A stretch of 64,000 nucleotides of DNA from Synechococcus sp. SynAce01. GTDB lineage: Bacteria; Cyanobacteriota; Cyanobacteriia; PCC-6307; Cyanobiaceae. The notes under the pieces were generated by a model. The model had not been told where the DNA came from. It did no database searches and saw nothing but the letters and a program-made list of their open reading frames with translations. Positions 21,007-28,724 of this stretch are shown here, piece by piece. A program made the position numbers and the translations under genes. The first letter of the stretch is position 1. Each line of letters begins with the position of its first letter. Location: positions 1,922,001-1,986,000 of the forward strand of contig NZ_CP018091.1 of NCBI RefSeq assembly GCF_001885215.1. The letters are read 5' to 3'.

Positions 21007-22284
21007 TCAGAGCTGGTCGAGGCTGTCTTCGATGGCGGCGTAGCACCGCTCCAGCTGGGCGTCATCGAGGCAGAGCGGCGGCAGTAGGTACACCACATGG
21101 CCCAAGGGCCGCAGGAAGACGCCATGGCCGAGGGCATGGCGCTGGATCTGGCGGCCAGCCCCGTTGAGATAGCCGGGATTCTCCACCTTCAGATCGAAGG
21201 CGGCGATCGTGCCGCGCAGGCGCGGGCGGCAGACCCGCGGGTGGCGCGCCAGGCGCAGAAGCAGCGGCTGATGGCGCGCTTCGAAGCTGCCGAAGAGCCC
21301 TGGGCGTGCTTCCAGCAGGCTCAGGCTGGCATTGGCGGCGGCGCAGCCCAGCGGGTTGGCGGTGAAGCTATGGCCGTGATACAGGGTGTGGGCGGGGTTG
21401 TCGCTGATGAAGCCCTGATAGAGGGCTTCACGGGCCAGGGTCACCCCCATCGGCAGGAAGCCACCGGTGAGCCCCTTGGAGAGAGCTACCAGGTCAGGTT
21501 GGAGGCCGGCGGCCTGGGCGGCGAACAGGGAGCCGGTGCGGCCGAAGCCGGTCATCACCTCATCGGTGATCAACAGGGCCCCAGCCTGGCGTACGCGCTC
21601 CTGCACGCCCCGCAGAAACTCGGGCCGCACCATCGCCATGCCACTGGCCCCCTGCACAAGCGGCTCGAGGATCACCGCAGCGGTGGGTACCGCCAGCAAC
21701 TCTTCCAGTCTGGCCAGGGCCGCGGTTTCCTTGGCCTCCACCGCTTCGTCGTCCCACCAGCTGGCCGGCCAGGGGGCCCGGGCGACGGGGCAGAGCAGGG
21801 GCTCGAACGGGGCGGAGAACAGCGACCGCTCGCCCAGGGCCATGGCCCCGAAGGTGTCACCGTGATAAGCCCCCTCAAAAGCGATCAGCTGGCGCCGAGG
21901 GCTGCCTTGGTTCCGCCACCACTGCCAGGCGATCTTGAGGGCCACCTCCACGGCGGTGGAGCCGTTGTCGGAGAAGAACAGACGCTCCAGGCCGCTGGCG
22001 GCGCTCAGCCGCATCGACAGACGCTCGGCCTGGGGGTGGCGAAAGTTGGCGAAGATCACCTGCTCAAGCTCCAGGGCCTGGGCGGCGATGGCCGCGGCGA
22101 TGCTGGGCTCCGCATGGCCGTGCAGGGTGACCCACCAGCTGCTGATCGCATCGATCAGGCGGCGGCCATCGGCGAGTTCCAGCAGGGCGCCACTGCCGCG
22201 AATTACGCGCAGCGGCGGCTCACTGCTCGCCACCTGGGTGGTCGGATGCCAGAGGTTGGGGTGCCAGGTTGAGGAAAGGCTCAA
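21007..22284 (-). CDS. bioA: Adenosylmethionine-8-amino-7-oxononanoate aminotransferase
   Basis: Class III PLP aminotransferase converting KAPA to DAPA in biotin synthesis. The PLP lysine lies in ALSKGLTGGFLPMG, and ITDEVMTGFGRTG is the cofactor-binding Asp motif. The family N-terminus (HPNLWHPTTQ) begins just after a TTG at 22284, whose bases overlap the TGA of the 50-aa ORF upstream (TTGA). That gives 425 residues, normal for BioA; an upstream ATG at 22338 would add a nonconserved tail and overlap that ORF deeply. It is the last gene of the biotin operon. Confidence 0.95.
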   Translation of the reverse strand: MSLSSTWHPNLWHPTTQVASSEPPLRVIRGSGALLELADGRRLIDAISSWWVTLHGHAEPSIAAAIAAQALELEQVIFANFRHPQAERLSMRLSAASGLERLFFSDNGSTAVEVALKIAWQWWRNQGSPRRQLIAFEGAYHGDTFGAMALGERSLFSAPFEPLLCPVARAPWPASWWDDEAVEAKETAALARLEELLAVPTAAVILEPLVQGASGMAMVRPEFLRGVQERVRQAGALLITDEVMTGFGRTGSLFAAQAAGLQPDLVALSKGLTGGFLPMGVTLAREALYQGFISDNPAHTLYHGHSFTANPLGCAAANASLSLLEARPGLFGSFEARHQPLLLRLARHPRVCRPRLRGTIAAFDLKVENPGYLNGAGRQIQRHALGHGVFLRPLGHVVYLLPPLCLDDAQLERCYAAIEDSLDQL

Positions 22285-22433
22285 CGGCAGCGGGGGTCGA
22301 GCTTGGCGGCCCTCGCATCCAGGGAGCAGTTGACCCACCGAACCGCTGCCATTTCGATGTCGGTGAACAGCACCAGGATCCCACCGCAGAGGAGGACGAC
22401 AGCCGTGCTGACCAGCAGGTTGGTGCGTGTCAT
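22281..22433 (-). CDS. Small membrane protein inside the biotin operon
   Basis: A 50-residue frame from ATG 22433 to TGA 22281. Its ATG overlaps the bioD stop (ATGA) and its stop overlaps the bioA TTG start (TTGA), so both junctions show the pattern of the rest of the operon. Residues 5-23 (NLLVSTAVVLLCGGILVLF) form one membrane helix, followed by TDIEMAAVRWVNCSLDARAA. No known family is recognised. The precise overlaps argue that it is a true gene. A role in biotin metabolism or transport is only inferred from position. Confidence 0.6.
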   Translation of the reverse strand: MTRTNLLVSTAVVLLCGGILVLFTDIEMAAVRWVNCSLDARAAKLDPRCR

Positions 22434-23083
22434 GGGGCTACGTTACAAGTGAGGCTCGCTGCCAGGCCGGAGTCGTGCCAGGCCGCAGCCAGGGTCTGGG
22501 CTGTGAGCGAGGCCAGCGGCGGCAGACAGCCGAGCACGGGGGCACCCGTCAGGGCCGCCAGGGTGCTGGGGTTGTCGGCATGGATGGGTCCGTTGAACAC
22601 CAGGCCCAGCAGCGGGATCCCCCGCTGGGCCAGGGCCTCCACCGACAGCAGGGTGTGGTTCAAGGTGCCCAGGCCGCTGCGGGCCACCAGCAGCACCGGC
22701 AGTCCCCAATGGCGCACCTGGTCGATCTGAAGCAGGTCACGGCGCAACGGCACCAACAGTCCGCCGGCCGTCTCCACCACCAGGGGGGCCGTCCCGATCG
22801 GCAACTCCAGGCGGCTTGGGTCGAGCAGGTCGTGCTCCAGCTCGCCGGCCCAGTGGGGGGAGACCGGATGGCTGTAGCGGTAGGCCTCCGGCAGGATCCG
22901 CCCTTCCGCCTCGGCCTCACTGAGGCCCAGCAGGCGCCTGACCCGCTTGCTGTCGCCGCCGTCTTCGAGGCCGCACTGCACCGGCTTCCAGTAGCGGGCC
23001 TTCAGGCCCTGAACCAGCAGGGCGCTCACCACCGTCTTGCCCACATCGGTGTCGGTGCCGCAGACGATCAGCCGCTGGGTCAT
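22430..23083 (-). CDS. bioD: Dethiobiotin synthetase
   Basis: A 217-residue ATP-dependent carboxylase closing the ureido ring of dethiobiotin. The P-loop GTDTDVGKT is at residues 9-17, right after the start, as in the family; VETAGGLLVPL is the conserved second motif. It is separated from bioC by 16 bases and overlaps the next small ORF by four. Confidence 0.96.
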   Translation of the reverse strand: MTQRLIVCGTDTDVGKTVVSALLVQGLKARYWKPVQCGLEDGGDSKRVRRLLGLSEAEAEGRILPEAYRYSHPVSPHWAGELEHDLLDPSRLELPIGTAPLVVETAGGLLVPLRRDLLQIDQVRHWGLPVLLVARSGLGTLNHTLLSVEALAQRGIPLLGLVFNGPIHADNPSTLAALTGAPVLGCLPPLASLTAQTLAAAWHDSGLAASLTCNVAP

Positions 23084-23099
23084 GGCAGGAAAGAGGAGG

Positions 23100-23906
23100 T
23101 CATGGCGCGGGTTTCTGCCCCACCAGCAGCAGCATCTCCCAGCTCAGGCGCTTGCCGCCACCCTCTGCAGCGGGGACGGCGGGCCAATGGGCCTCGATCC
23201 GGCGCCACTCCCCGGGCTGCAACGGGGCCACAGGGCTGGTGCCGGCCCCAAGGCTTCGGATCTGGCGCAGAAAGGTCAGGGCGCTCGGAGCCTGGCGGCT
23301 GAAGCGCAGGTGGTCGACGCGTTCGATCCGCAGGTGCCGGCTGGCCAGCTCCACCAGGCGGCTGGCCACGGGCAAGGGCAAGGCGCTGCAGGGCAGGCCA
23401 GCCGCCTGGGCGGCCTGGCGCCATTGGCAAAAACTGCCGGCCGTGGGAACCGCCAGGGCCAGCCAGCCTGCCGGGCCCAAAGACTGGCACCACCGCTCCA
23501 GGTGGCGCTCGGGCTGCTCCAGCCAGTGGAGGGCAAAGCTGGACACCAGCAGCGAGGCGCCCTGCAGTTGGCCGGGCAGCCCCAGGTTGAGGTCCCAGGT
23601 GAGCCGGTCGGCGGCCTGATCCAAGCCGAGCAGGGCGGCGCAGTTGTCCAGTCGCAGCAGGGCCAGGCCGGGACGCTGCTGTTCGATCGCCCGAGCCAGC
23701 AGGCCCGTTCCCGCCCCCAGATCGACGCAGGGGCCTGCCGGAAGGGGCAGGCCGCGGCAGTGGTGGGCCAGGCGCCATGCCACGGCCCGTTGCAGCTCTG
23801 CTCCGCGTTCATAGCGGCCTGCCTGGCGCTCGAAGCCGTCCCTCACCCGCGTGGCGAAATTCGAAGCAGGCCGAAGGGTAGGCTGGCTGCGCCCGGCGCT
23901 GCTCAT
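23100..23906 (-). CDS. bioC: Malonyl-ACP O-methyltransferase
   Basis: A SAM-dependent methyltransferase that masks malonyl-ACP (or -CoA) so that fatty acid synthase can build pimeloyl-ACP methyl ester. The segment VDLGAGTGLLARAIEQ is the SAM-binding motif, and the N-terminal FATRVRDGFERQAGRYERGA matches BioC. The start at 23906 overlaps the bioK stop by one base (TGATG); a further ATG at 23924 would intrude on bioK. Length is 268 residues. Confidence 0.92.
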   Translation of the reverse strand: MSSAGRSQPTLRPASNFATRVRDGFERQAGRYERGAELQRAVAWRLAHHCRGLPLPAGPCVDLGAGTGLLARAIEQQRPGLALLRLDNCAALLGLDQAADRLTWDLNLGLPGQLQGASLLVSSFALHWLEQPERHLERWCQSLGPAGWLALAVPTAGSFCQWRQAAQAAGLPCSALPLPVASRLVELASRHLRIERVDHLRFSRQAPSALTFLRQIRSLGAGTSPVAPLQPGEWRRIEAHWPAVPAAEGGGKRLSWEMLLLVGQKPAP

Positions 23907-24652
23907 CAGGGCCTCTCCAGCCAATCGAAGACCGGCTCCAACAGGTCGGCGCCCAGCAGGCTGTGGCCTGCCGTCTCGATCAGCCAGCGCTCGGCCAAGG
24001 GCAGCGACTGGCGCAACAGCAGGCGGCTGATCGGTGCCACGACCCCATCCTGACCGGCTTCGACGATCAGCACCCGGGCCTTGGCGGGAAATCCGGTTGG
24101 TAGGCCGCTGAGGGTTTCCATGCGGCGCAGGTCATGGAGCAGCCGCTGCGCGTTGATCGCTTCGCTGGAGTCGAGCCCCGGGCCGAGCGGCAGCAGGGCA
24201 GCTGACTCCGGTGCCGCCGCCTTGGTGAGGAAATCGCGCAGCATGGGCTGGGCGTCACCGGCCTCCAGCCGGGCGGCCATGCCCTGCAGGGCCGTGCGCC
24301 AACGCCGCCCACTCGGACCTTCCGGCACAAAGCGCCCGAAGCTGGCCAGCAGCACCACCGCATCGGCCTGCTGCAGCACCGCTGCCGACAACAGGTGCAG
24401 GCCGAGCGAGTGCACCATCACGGCCCGCCTACCAGCTCCTTCCTGGCCGGGGAGCCACTCAGGAGCCCGTGGCGTCAGGGGGCCATAACCGCGCTCCCCG
24501 CTGCCCCAGGCCCAGCCGCGCCGTTCGGCAGCGGCCTGCCAGGGTTGCCAGGCCCGGCTGTCGCCGGCCCAGCCGTGCATGGCGATCAGCTGCCATGGCG
24601 CAGGTTCCTGGCCATGATCTTGACCATGTTTCTCGGCAGCACCGGCACTCAT
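23906..24652 (-). CDS. bioK: Pimeloyl-ACP methyl ester esterase, BioK type
   Basis: An alpha/beta hydrolase of 248 residues in the place where bioK is known in marine Synechococcus and Prochlorococcus, between bioF and bioC. It would remove the methyl ester that ends pimelate chain building. The putative triad is Ser82 (VHSLG), Asp202 (GQDGVV) and His230 (TAGHSLL); the N-terminal MHGWAGDSRAW supplies the oxyanion-hole turn. The ATG at 24652 overlaps the bioF stop (ATGA). Longer upstream frames are out-of-frame shadows of bioF. Confidence 0.85.
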   Translation of the reverse strand: MSAGAAEKHGQDHGQEPAPWQLIAMHGWAGDSRAWQPWQAAAERRGWAWGSGERGYGPLTPRAPEWLPGQEGAGRRAVMVHSLGLHLLSAAVLQQADAVVLLASFGRFVPEGPSGRRWRTALQGMAARLEAGDAQPMLRDFLTKAAAPESAALLPLGPGLDSSEAINAQRLLHDLRRMETLSGLPTGFPAKARVLIVEAGQDGVVAPISRLLLRQSLPLAERWLIETAGHSLLGADLLEPVFDWLERP

Positions 24653-25833
24653 GGCGCGCCTCGCTGGGGTGGTGCGCCCAGGGCCAGCAGCAACCGCTCC
24701 AGGCTTCCGGAGGGAAGATCGCGGCGCAGCACCAGCCGCAGCCTGGAGCTGCCCGTCGGCACGGTGGGCGGCCGGATGGCCACGCTCAACAGGCCGCCGC
24801 GCTCGAGCTGCTGTTGCAGGGCCAGGGCCCCATGGGCTGGGCCCACCGGCAGTGGCAGGATCGGGCCTTCCCCGGCTGGCCGCCCCCAGCCCGCCTGCTC
24901 CAGGGCCCGCCGCCAGTGGCGGGCGCGCGCCTGAAGCTGGCGGCCCATCGAGGGCTCCTCCTCCAGCAGTTCCAGGGCCGCCAGGGCGGCGGCGGCCAGG
25001 GGCGGGGCCAGGGCCGTTGAGTAGCGGAAGGCGCCGGAGGTCTGCAGCAACCACTCACCGATCGGACCATCGCCGGCCAGGAAAGCGCCGCCACTTCCGA
25101 AGGCCTTGCCGAAGGTGCCGCTGATCAGGCTGACCCCCGCCAGGCCATGGGCCAGGCCGCGCCCACCGGATCCGAGCACCCCAAGGGCGTGGGCCTCATC
25201 AACCAGCAGCAGAGCCCCGTAGTTCTGGCAGAGGCCGGCGATGACGGCCAGCTCAGGACTCGTCCCCTCCATGCTGAACAGGCTTTCTGTGAGCACGAGT
25301 AGCCGCCGCTGCGGATCCTCACGGCGCTGCTGTTGCAGCAGGGCCTCCAGCGCGGCGCTGTCGTTGTGGGCGAAACGCCGCAACCTGGCGCCGCTGGCGC
25401 GCACCCCAACCAAGAGCGAATGGTGGATCAGCCGGTCGGCCAGCACCAGGCTGTGGCGATCAGCCAGGGCGATCACTGCCGCCAGATTGGCCTGAAAGCC
25501 GCTGGGGAACAGCAAAACCCGCTCCCGACCGAGCCAGGCCGCCAGCCGCTCTTCCAGGGCGGCGTGGACGGGCCGGCTGCCGCTGATCAGGCGTGACGCT
25601 CCGGCCCCGATGCCTTGAGCATCGATGGCGGCGTGGGCCGCCGCCCGTAGTCGCGGATGGGCGCTGAGGCCCAGGTAGTCGTTACTGGCCAGGTCCAGCA
25701 GCAGGGGAGCCTGGGGCTGGTCGGCCTGAAGCAGGCCAGCTCCAGCGGGGCTGAAGCTTCGCAACTGGCGGCGCTGATCGGCGGGAAGCCTCTCCAGGGC
25801 TTCGCTCAGGGGAGAGAGGGGGTCGACAACCAC
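24649..25833 (-). CDS. bioF: 8-amino-7-oxononanoate synthase
   Basis: PLP enzyme joining pimeloyl-ACP and alanine to give KAPA, first gene of the biotin operon. The PLP lysine is about residue 243 in SGTFGKAFG, with DEAHALG at about 212-218 binding the cofactor. I prefer the GTG at 25833 (394 residues, family length), which leaves about 75 bases for a promoter facing the divergent helicase gene; an ATG at 25899 would leave almost none and add an unconserved tail. Confidence 0.95.
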   Translation of the reverse strand: MVVDPLSPLSEALERLPADQRRQLRSFSPAGAGLLQADQPQAPLLLDLASNDYLGLSAHPRLRAAAHAAIDAQGIGAGASRLISGSRPVHAALEERLAAWLGRERVLLFPSGFQANLAAVIALADRHSLVLADRLIHHSLLVGVRASGARLRRFAHNDSAALEALLQQQRREDPQRRLLVLTESLFSMEGTSPELAVIAGLCQNYGALLLVDEAHALGVLGSGGRGLAHGLAGVSLISGTFGKAFGSGGAFLAGDGPIGEWLLQTSGAFRYSTALAPPLAAAALAALELLEEEPSMGRQLQARARHWRRALEQAGWGRPAGEGPILPLPVGPAHGALALQQQLERGGLLSVAIRPPTVPTGSSRLRLVLRRDLPSGSLERLLLALGAPPQRGAP

Positions 25834-25910
25834 GCGGCGAGCGGCCAGAACCGGGCATCGGCAGGGCCTTGCAGTCTGCCCAATCGGCCCGCTGCCCATA
25901 GAGTTTGTTC

Positions 25911-28724
25911 ATGCTCACTGTCGGCTCCGACGCCCCACGCCCCGAGGCGGGGCGCGATTCACCTGCCCCCCTTGCGCCTGGGATTCCCTCGGCTGAGGTG
26001 CCTGCCCTTGAGCAGCTCTTTCCGTTTCCGCTCGATCCCTTTCAGCACGAGGCGATCGATGCCCTCAACCAGGGGCATTCGGTGGTGGTCAGCGCTCCCA
26101 CGGGGTCCGGCAAAACCCTTGTGGGCGAATACGCCATCCACCGGGCCCTGGCCCACGGCCAGAAGGTGTTCTACACCACGCCGCTGAAGGCCCTCTCCAA
26201 CCAGAAACTGCGCGATTTCCGCGAGCAGTTCGGTGCCGATCAAGTCGGCCTGATGACCGGTGATCTGAGCACGAACCGGGAGGCTCCGATCGTGGTGATG
26301 ACCACCGAGATCTTCCGCAACATGCTTTACGCGGAGGTGGATCGCGGCGACGACCCCCTCGCCGATGTGGAGGCGGTGGTGCTCGATGAGTGCCACTACA
26401 TGAACGACTCCCAGCGCGGCACAGTCTGGGAAGAATCGATCATTCATTGCCCACCGGCGGTGCAGCTGGTGGCGCTCTCGGCCACCGTGGCCAACGCCGG
26501 CCAGCTCACCGACTGGATCGAGCGGGTGCATGGCCCCACCACCCTGGTGATGAGTGATCACCGGCCGGTGCCCCTGGCCTTCAGCTTCTGCAGTGCCAAG
26601 GGGCTGCATCCCCTGCTCAACGACGAGAAGACGGGCCTGCATCCCAACTGCAAGGTGTGGCGCGCTCCAAAAGGCGAGCGTCGCAAGGGCAAGAGTTCGA
26701 GACCACCCCAGCCGGAGGCCGCCCCCCTGCCCTTCGTGGTGGCCCAGATGGCCGAGCGCGACATGCTGCCGGCCATCTATTTCATCTTCAGCCGCCGCGC
26801 CTGCGACAAGGCGGTGCGCGACCTCGGCCGGATCTGCCTGGTCAGCGAGGCGGAGCAGGCGGTGATCGACCGCCGCCTTGACGCCTTCGTGGCGGCCACG
26901 CCTGAGGCGGTGCGGGAGGGCGGCCACGCCGACGCGCTCAGGCGGGGGATTGCCTCACACCACGCCGGGGTGCTGCCGGCCTGGAAGGAACTGATCGAGG
27001 AACTCTTCCAGCAGGGGTTGGTCAAGGTGGTGTTTGCCACCGAAACCCTGGCGGCCGGCATCAACATGCCGGCGCGCACCACGGTGATCTCGGCCCTCTC
27101 GAAGCGAACCGAGCGGGGCCACCGGCCGCTGATGGGCAGTGAGTTCCTGCAGATGGCGGGCCGGGCCGGGCGGCGTGGCCTAGACGTGCAGGGCTATGTC
27201 GTCACGGTGCAGAGCCGTTTCGAAGGGGTGCGTGAAGCCGGAACGCTGGCCACCAGCCCGGCTGATCCGCTCGTGAGCCAGTTCACGCCCAGCTACGGCA
27301 TGGTGCTCAACTTGCTGCAGCGCTATGAGCTGGCCAAGGCCAAGCAACTGGTGGAACGCAGCTTCGGCCGCTACCTGGCCACCCTCGATCTGCTCGACGA
27401 CGAAGCCCGCATCCTGGAACTGCGCCAGCAACTCGACACGCTCAGTGGCCCGGTCAGCGATGTGCCCTGGGAAGCCTTTGAGGTTTATGAGAAACAGCGC
27501 GAGCGGCTGAGGGAGGAGCGGCGCCTGCTGCGCATCCTGCAGCAGCAGGCCGAGGAGACCCTGGCCAACGAACTCACTTTGGCCCTGCAGTTCGCCAGCG
27601 AAGGAACCCTGGTGAGCCTCAAGGCACCCCAGCTCAAGGGCCGGGTCACCCCGGCGGTGATCGTTGAGAAGCTGCAGGGTCCGGGCCAATTCCCCCTGTT
27701 GCTCTGCCTCACCGACGAGAACGTCTGGATCCTGGTGCCCTGCCAGGGCGTGGTGAGCCTGCATGCCGAGCTGAGTTGCCTGCAGGTGGGCCAGGCTGCG
27801 GCGCCCGAGCTGCGCCATGCCGGTGAGTTGCGCCACGGCGATCAGGCCAGTGGCGGCCTGGCCCTGGCGGTGGGCTCGATGGCCAGCCGCCACGACATGG
27901 TCACCCCCCAGTACGACCTGGCTGGTGAGGTGCGCAGCCAGGCCGAGCTGGTGGCGGAACAGGAGAGGGAACTCGAGCTGCACCCCGCCCACCGCTGGGG
28001 AGACCGCCGCCAGCTCAAGAAGCAACGGCGGCGCATGGAGGAGCTGGATCTGGAGATCGAGGAACGCCAGCGCCTGCTGCACCATCGCTCCAATCGCCAT
28101 TGGGACACGTTTCTCTCCTTGATCGAGATCCTGCGCTTCTTCGGTGCGCTCGATGGCCCCGATGGCCTCGAGCCCACCGAAGTGGGCCGCACCGTGGCGG
28201 CCCTGCGTGGTGATAACGAGCTCTGGCTGGGCCTGGCCCTGATGAGCGGCCACCTCGATGCCCTCAACCCGGCCGAGCTGGCCGCGGTGTTCGAGGCGAT
28301 CAGCACCGAAGTGAACCGGCCGGATCTCTGGAGCGGCTTCCTCTCACCGCCCCTGGCGGAAGAGGCCCTGCACGATCTCGGCGGGCTGCGCCGCGAGCTG
28401 CTGCGCCAGCAGGAGAAGGCCGGGGTGGTGGTGCCGGCCTGGTGGGAACCGGAGTTGATGGGTCTGGTCCATGCCTGGGCCACCGGCACCAGCTGGAGCG
28501 ACCTGATCGCCAATACCTCCTTGGATGAGGGCGATGTGGTGCGCATCCTGCGCCGCACCGTCGACCTGCTGGCCCAGGTTCCCTATGCCGAAGCGATCAG
28601 CGCCCAGCTGCGCACCACAGCCCGCCAGGCCCTGCGGGCGATCAACCGCTTCCCGGTCTGCGAACTGCAGGATTCAGCGCCCGCTCCGCCTGCCACGCAG
28701 GATCCGATGTTATCTGGTAGTTGA
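25911..28724 (+). CDS. Ski2/Mtr4-type DEAD/DEAH-box RNA helicase with DSHCT domain
   Basis: A 937-residue superfamily 2 helicase. Walker A is APTGSGKT (62-69), motif II is DECH (158-161), and motif VI is MAGRAGRRG from about 415. The C-terminal third (LELHPAHRWGD... to IEILRFFGAL and beyond) matches the DSHCT domain of Ski2/Mtr4 proteins, related to chloroplast ISE2. It probably unwinds structured RNA for processing or decay. ATG at 25911 is preferred; a TTG two codons earlier is possible. Confidence 0.92.
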   Translation: MLTVGSDAPRPEAGRDSPAPLAPGIPSAEVPALEQLFPFPLDPFQHEAIDALNQGHSVVVSAPTGSGKTLVGEYAIHRALAHGQKVFYTTPLKALSNQKLRDFREQFGADQVGLMTGDLSTNREAPIVVMTTEIFRNMLYAEVDRGDDPLADVEAVVLDECHYMNDSQRGTVWEESIIHCPPAVQLVALSATVANAGQLTDWIERVHGPTTLVMSDHRPVPLAFSFCSAKGLHPLLNDEKTGLHPNCKVWRAPKGERRKGKSSRPPQPEAAPLPFVVAQMAERDMLPAIYFIFSRRACDKAVRDLGRICLVSEAEQAVIDRRLDAFVAATPEAVREGGHADALRRGIASHHAGVLPAWKELIEELFQQGLVKVVFATETLAAGINMPARTTVISALSKRTERGHRPLMGSEFLQMAGRAGRRGLDVQGYVVTVQSRFEGVREAGTLATSPADPLVSQFTPSYGMVLNLLQRYELAKAKQLVERSFGRYLATLDLLDDEARILELRQQLDTLSGPVSDVPWEAFEVYEKQRERLREERRLLRILQQQAEETLANELTLALQFASEGTLVSLKAPQLKGRVTPAVIVEKLQGPGQFPLLLCLTDENVWILVPCQGVVSLHAELSCLQVGQAAAPELRHAGELRHGDQASGGLALAVGSMASRHDMVTPQYDLAGEVRSQAELVAEQERELELHPAHRWGDRRQLKKQRRRMEELDLEIEERQRLLHHRSNRHWDTFLSLIEILRFFGALDGPDGLEPTEVGRTVAALRGDNELWLGLALMSGHLDALNPAELAAVFEAISTEVNRPDLWSGFLSPPLAEEALHDLGGLRRELLRQQEKAGVVVPAWWEPELMGLVHAWATGTSWSDLIANTSLDEGDVVRILRRTVDLLAQVPYAEAISAQLRTTARQALRAINRFPVCELQDSAPAPPATQDPMLSGS

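Follow-up and report, generated by a model that had tools for sequence, protein, structure and literature searches.

A small predicted membrane protein gene coupled to bioD in Synechococcus sp. SynAce01 and its relatives

We identified a frame of 50 codons plus a stop between the biotin genes bioD and bioA of Synechococcus sp. SynAce01 that is, on the strength of its sequence, near-certainly a real gene and that likely encodes a membrane protein with a single span. The frame lies at 22281..22433 on the minus strand of the window, by which we mean the whole 64,000-nucleotide stretch of DNA analysed here. It runs from an ATG start (22433-22431) to a TGA stop (22283-22281), and its translation is MTRTNLLVSTAVVLLCGGILVLFTDIEMAAVRWVNCSLDARAAKLDPRCR (50 residues). 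We favor, at a probability of roughly 45%, the reading that the protein has a single span, depends on bioD for its expression, and serves another membrane protein as an accessory or assembly subunit outside the biotin pathway.

The frame is embedded in an operon whose genes all lie on the minus strand. It is preceded by bioD (dethiobiotin synthase, 22430..23083; TIGR00347, E 6.7e-36) and followed by bioA (adenosylmethionine-8-amino-7-oxononanoate transaminase, 21007..22284; TIGR00508, E 1.1e-141), both of which match NCBIfam equivalogs above the cut-off. Farther upstream are a bioC-like methyltransferase gene (23100..23906, start taken from the junction), named for its operon position and for a match to TIGR02072 below the model cut-off (E 1e-22), and two open frames that, from their position, we take to be a bioK/bioH-type esterase gene (23906..24652) and a bioF-like gene (24649..25899). 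As described in an available excerpt of one report, bioK lies upstream of bioC in Synechococcus (PMC3494674). The first-pass annotation had the frame exactly filling the space between bioD and bioA by way of two overlaps, and had noted overlaps of 1-4 bases at every other junction of the operon except bioC-bioD. The junction sequences bear this out: the frame shares ATGA (22430..22433) with bioD and TTGA (22281..22284) with bioA, bioF and bioK overlap by 4 bases (ATGA), bioK and bioC overlap by 1 base (TGATG), and the sole gap, of 16 bases, separates bioC from bioD. The TTG start of bioA is credible because TTG is the sole in-frame start codon remaining upstream of the BioA match in two relatives, L003 and L005. 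By frame offsets, the TTGA-type overlap recurs in L003 and L004; it is absent in L005, where the TTG is found ~30 bases past the small frame.

Loci fetched by a search with the BioD protein exhibited a small frame directly behind bioD in many relatives. In an alignment of the first 13 proteins, Met1, Cys16, Ile19, Thr24, Glu27, Cys36, and Cys49 are invariant. Codon-position entropy over 74 distinct coding sequences is 1.35 at the third position, as compared to 0.83 and 0.67 at the other two. The pooled dN/dS of the frame is 0.218 and that of bioD 0.221 over the same 70 pairs (synonymous difference 0.05-0.3); for the 25 closest pairs the values are 0.248 and 0.199, the frame being slightly less constrained. 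The ratio for the frame is 0.545 in pairs with a synonymous difference of 0.3-0.5, and its median over 1462 pairs (synonymous difference 0.05-0.6) is 0.45, a value that we put down to saturation of synonymous sites; our reading of selection relies on the close pairs, not on this median. Because protein-level conservation, the codon-position pattern, and dN/dS all agree, the frame is beyond chance. The first-pass annotation had proposed a real, uncharacterised small membrane protein and had made its case depend on a conserved frame and helix between bioD and bioA in Synechococcus/Cyanobium relatives. Frame, helix, and bioD overlap are all kept in relatives, which strongly supports the proposal as far as sequence goes, the frame's product being a predicted protein.

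The single membrane helix claimed from the window is evident as a clear hydrophobic stretch, residues 6-24 (LLVSTAVVLLCGGILVLFT; 22362..22418, minus strand), whose Kyte-Doolittle mean of 2.54 is the best of any 19 residues. Among 110 homologues, counted as distinct strings such that a genome fetched twice may count twice if the ends differ, the 19-residue mean reaches 1.6 in 109, and the net charge of the N-terminal flank is above that of the C-terminal flank in all 110. Both patterns point to a likely single-span, N-in/C-out topology. The C-terminal segment from Cys36 to the end (22284..22328, minus strand) contains two cysteines, Cys36 and Cys49, that are kept together in 107 of the 110 homologues, the first of them 12 residues past the helix-ending Thr. 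The pair is absent in L181, L025, and L084, all kept in the 110 count, whose C-termini are truncated or unlike the rest and may be draft errors; variants with a shortened C-terminus retain both cysteines. There are 10-14 residues between the two in 106 homologues, and one loop scored as 29 extends to a cysteine that lies past the normal end. We consider a Cys36-Cys49 disulfide on the outer or lumenal face probable. A third cysteine, Cys16, lies within the helix in 98 of the 110 homologues. A bacterial lipoprotein was rejected. A lipobox has Gly, Ala, or Ser ahead of the cysteine and a hydrophobic stretch that stops there; in 74 coding sequences, Cys16 follows Leu, Ile, or Val 69 times and Ala 4 times, the hydrophobic stretch continues behind Cys16, and this cysteine is missing in genera g25 and g68. 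AlphaFold, given three sequences only, predicted a helix over residues 3-38 (mean pLDDT 79.4; 94 for residues 11-20), and confidence in the model is low at the C-terminus, with a mean pLDDT of 61 over residues 41-50.

The frame is directly downstream of bioD, on the same strand, in 115/115 genomes that have both places among the best 150 listed for the frame search and the best 150 listed for the bioD search; distant genera are under-represented in the latter because it is ranked by likeness to the bioD of the window. We then considered 81 loci (an earlier locus set minus 15 duplicates and the broken L012, with L160 onward left out). The frame starts at -4 relative to bioD in 62 of them, with ATG in 52, GTG in 6, and TTG in 4, and at -1 in three more. 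In the same 81 loci, bioA by estimate overlaps or abuts the frame in 6 (three of the window's genus and three of g6), follows within 59 bases in 21 and farther away in 34, with gaps of up to ~1 kb, and is not on the frame's strand of the fetched locus in 20. It is present in all 28 genomes searched, most of which were chosen for a fetched locus without bioA. For ten genomes with no bioA in the locus, the next genes after the frame form a convergent cluster of p125 and a dnaJ-like gene, joined by rsmG in nine within the fetched stretch; this cluster sits beyond bioA in the window. Because bioA departs in several lineages while the frame and bioD stay together, the bioD-frame pair is the conserved unit and the snug bioA fit is the exception. 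Loci in which bioD and the frame lie beside the p125/dnaJ-like cluster, with bioA out of the bio operon and elsewhere in the genome, are L008, L011, L051, L066, L082, L084, L107, L142, L145, L150, and L153. The bioD matches of four genomes (G199, G231, G280, and G291) span one TGA, possibly a normal stop within a longer alignment or a draft error.

Cells of the window's family, the Synechococcus/Prochlorococcus family, rank with the most abundant photosynthetic organisms on Earth. Of 400 family genomes searched with a profile of 13 proteins, 201 have a match to the frame; the count is 138 for the 251 good genomes and 22 for the 59 genera, and most genomes with a match have one copy, in the bio operon. 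Since it is absent from about half of the family's genomes, the frame is dispensable. In a tree of BioD built on 62 chosen rows, whose root is not resolved, the presence of the frame beside bioD requires 6 changes, at least 4 of them forced by well-supported branches; we infer that the frame was ancestral to the family and was lost repeatedly. Small genomes predominate among those without it, but genera g9, g19, and g33 contribute larger ones. We take the small ones to be streamlined Prochlorococcus-type lineages. A search of 37 frame-less genomes with a wider profile recovered a remnant in G023 only, a broken frame of 27 residues behind bioD (E 1.9e-5) that is counted among the 201 matches; all other hits were at E 0.027 or worse.

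In genus g25, at least two genomes have the frame and bioD at separate places. In the single contig of G027 the frame is at 934,873, where it adjoins a CorA gene, and bioD is at 1,671,191. The 12.5 kb fetched around the frame of G095 contain none of bioA, bioC, bioD, or bioF; the frame is near genes for an ATP-dependent DNA ligase and for a protein with sub-threshold metallo-beta-lactamase matches. By eye, G142 has the same frame neighbours as G095, and the homologues in G121, G160, and G176 are of the same types as those of G027, G095, and G142. Extra copies in loci without bioD occur in five g59 genomes and one g31 genome (G123). These seven off-operon copies (MTVGNLLSGTAVALL...) are at L109 7063-7215, L110 2967-3119, L111 7987-8139, L112 7038-7190, L113 5287-5439, L114 7049-7198, and L115 6958-7110. 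Over 15 pairs, the six g59 copies have a dN/dS of ~0.25. For the full set of seven, similarity of the flanks climbs to ~0.9 some 30 bases before the start. Transposase-like frames were recognised by eye in some of these loci, and the pattern resembles the trace of a copied small cassette. In the draft genome G354 (L076, L089), another match lies on a short piece of contig whose available 1.7 kb contain no bioD; it could be a second copy or the product of a mixed bin.

In the accessory-subunit reading, ribosomes finishing bioD would restart at the overlapping start codon and make the frame protein. Its N-terminus would be cytoplasmic, residues ~6-24 would cross the membrane, and the C-terminal part (TDIE...RWxNCGP...S.VCR) would lie on the periplasmic or thylakoid-lumenal side, most likely with its two conserved cysteines joined in a disulfide. 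The conserved T/E/RW face may hold a partner membrane protein, with the disulfide as stabiliser, and bioD would provide expression, not a shared task. We favor such a subunit over a role in biotin because the frame outlasts the departure of bioA, is separate from bioD in at least two g25 genomes, and is absent from many genomes with bioD. However, linkage to bioD is also expected from a biotin-linked role, and genes that are not jointly needed can remain together in compact genomes. A bolder form, possible and offered tentatively, is that these proteins make up an overlooked picocyanobacterial membrane protein family, ancestral and lost in streamlined lineages, whose lumenal or periplasmic disulfide holds or senses a membrane complex (photosynthetic, respiratory, or for biotin transport) and whose dose is set by restart behind bioD.

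The first-pass annotation had called the protein biotin-linked, which stands for the position of the gene and is weakened for a role in the pathway. The presence of the frame does not follow that of the pathway genes, with bioD in 248 of the 251 good genomes as compared to 138 for the frame and at least 110 of the 251 keeping bioD without it. Taken with the departure of bioA, the g25 genomes G027 and G095, the off-operon copies with their dN/dS of ~0.25, and a likely homologue next to a universal stress protein gene in the distant genome G889, this indicates that there is probably no fixed tie of the frame to biotin synthesis. A protein that anchors BioD/BioA, or that works with BioY or at another membrane step of biotin use, is nevertheless a possibility that we hold to be doubtful rather than negligible, because the bioD linkage is unbroken in the listed genomes. 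The place behind bioD, the start/stop coupling, and the persistence of this linkage where bioA has left the operon all fit such a protein, and a partner would be at hand, BioY being found in 90 of 101 genomes tested and in all 64 good ones. Because BioY is in every good genome its co-distribution is uninformative, and genomes that have the frame and genomes that lack it alike contain bioD and BioY. Four frame-less genomes (G011, G021, G035, and G077) have bioA, and the BioD and BioA enzymes are soluble. BioY is universal in the 64 good genomes even though genes for making biotin are present in the family too, and its match is much weaker in the three g18 genomes.

The remaining explanations differ in what they make of the peptide. 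The cysteine pair could bind metal or haem on the outer or lumenal face, the protein being otherwise as in the accessory-subunit reading; the two conserved cysteines and Cys16 in the helix are compatible with this, but the alignments show neither a CxxC or CxxCH spacing nor a conserved His, and Cys16 is absent in g25 and g68, so we regard it as unlikely. Size, a single helix, and the extra copies in some genomes recall small hydrophobic toxin-like or stress peptides that act on the membrane. Such a role is improbable for a gene found as a single bio-operon copy in most genomes with a match, under selection about equal to that on bioD in close pairs, and with conserved cysteines and a conserved C-terminal motif. 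The idea that the stretch from bioD to bioA is a translational-coupling spacer or an RNA element whose peptide is unimportant draws on the way the frame exactly fills the gap and touches both genes in the window, and is already largely refuted: selection acts at the amino-acid level (codon pattern, dN/dS), bioA is often distant or outside the locus, the frame also exists away from bioD, and 21800-26200 contains no Rfam match over the gathering score, with two sub-gathering hits only.

Pfam and NCBIfam searches with three members were negative up to E 1, and the best hits of a 13-member search (Pfam E 0.15, PHROG E 0.018) are not credible. The 13-member profile found nothing up to E 5 among solved-structure chain sequences, and none of the titles, abstract openings, and excerpts listed from the open-licence literature describes this protein. 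Half of the 400 sampled family genomes carry a match, yet no searched family library or solved-structure sequence covers the protein. If it is a complex subunit, it would be a missing piece of picocyanobacterial membranes; if biotin-linked, it would be the membrane part of a pathway with soluble enzymes. The coupling to bioD is an easy handle for finding and tagging it.

Small single-span subunits occur in photosynthetic and respiratory membrane complexes, CydX among them. PsaI, PsbX, and PetM, of the same kind, are named in an available excerpt (PMC10903887). The frame protein resembles subunits of the PsaI/PsbX/PetM/CydX type in size, one helix, short tails, and a possible accessory role, and differs from them in having no Pfam, NCBIfam, or solved-structure sequence match, in the conserved cysteine pair behind the helix, and in a gene that is usually behind bioD. 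According to a partial source, CP12 has cysteine pairs and NsiR6 has four conserved cysteines, one pair of which forms CPVC (PMC5126843). Like these proteins, as they appear in that source, the frame protein is small and cyanobacterial, with conserved cysteines and a possible redox role, but its single pair is spaced by 10-14 residues and follows a membrane helix. BioK, BioG, and BioH are presented in an excerpt as variable bio operon genes for pathway esterases (PMC3494674). As far as that excerpt goes, the frame shares with them a lineage-specific place in the biotin operon and overlapping ends, and differs as a 50-residue membrane protein with no enzyme family match.

Searches for carriage of the frame by phages, plasmids, and viruses gave no match. 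Six weak hits (E 0.002-0.006) that the first profile gave across 292 genomes of the phylum look unrelated and were set aside; three of them are one recurring frame, that of another protein, 97 residues long. With the wider profile, 388 genomes of the class yielded one credible hit outside the family, in G889 (E 1.6e-5), and the other 62 genomes of its order had no frame match up to E 0.01. The draft genome with this hit is 83% complete, the contig is 3.4 kb long, and misbinning, transfer, and old inheritance may each account for it indistinguishably. On the evidence of this one short contig, the likely homologue hints that the family is older or mobile. It lies at L210 2519-2656, adjoins a universal stress protein gene, and reads RWFTC-GPFS-SGVCRR.
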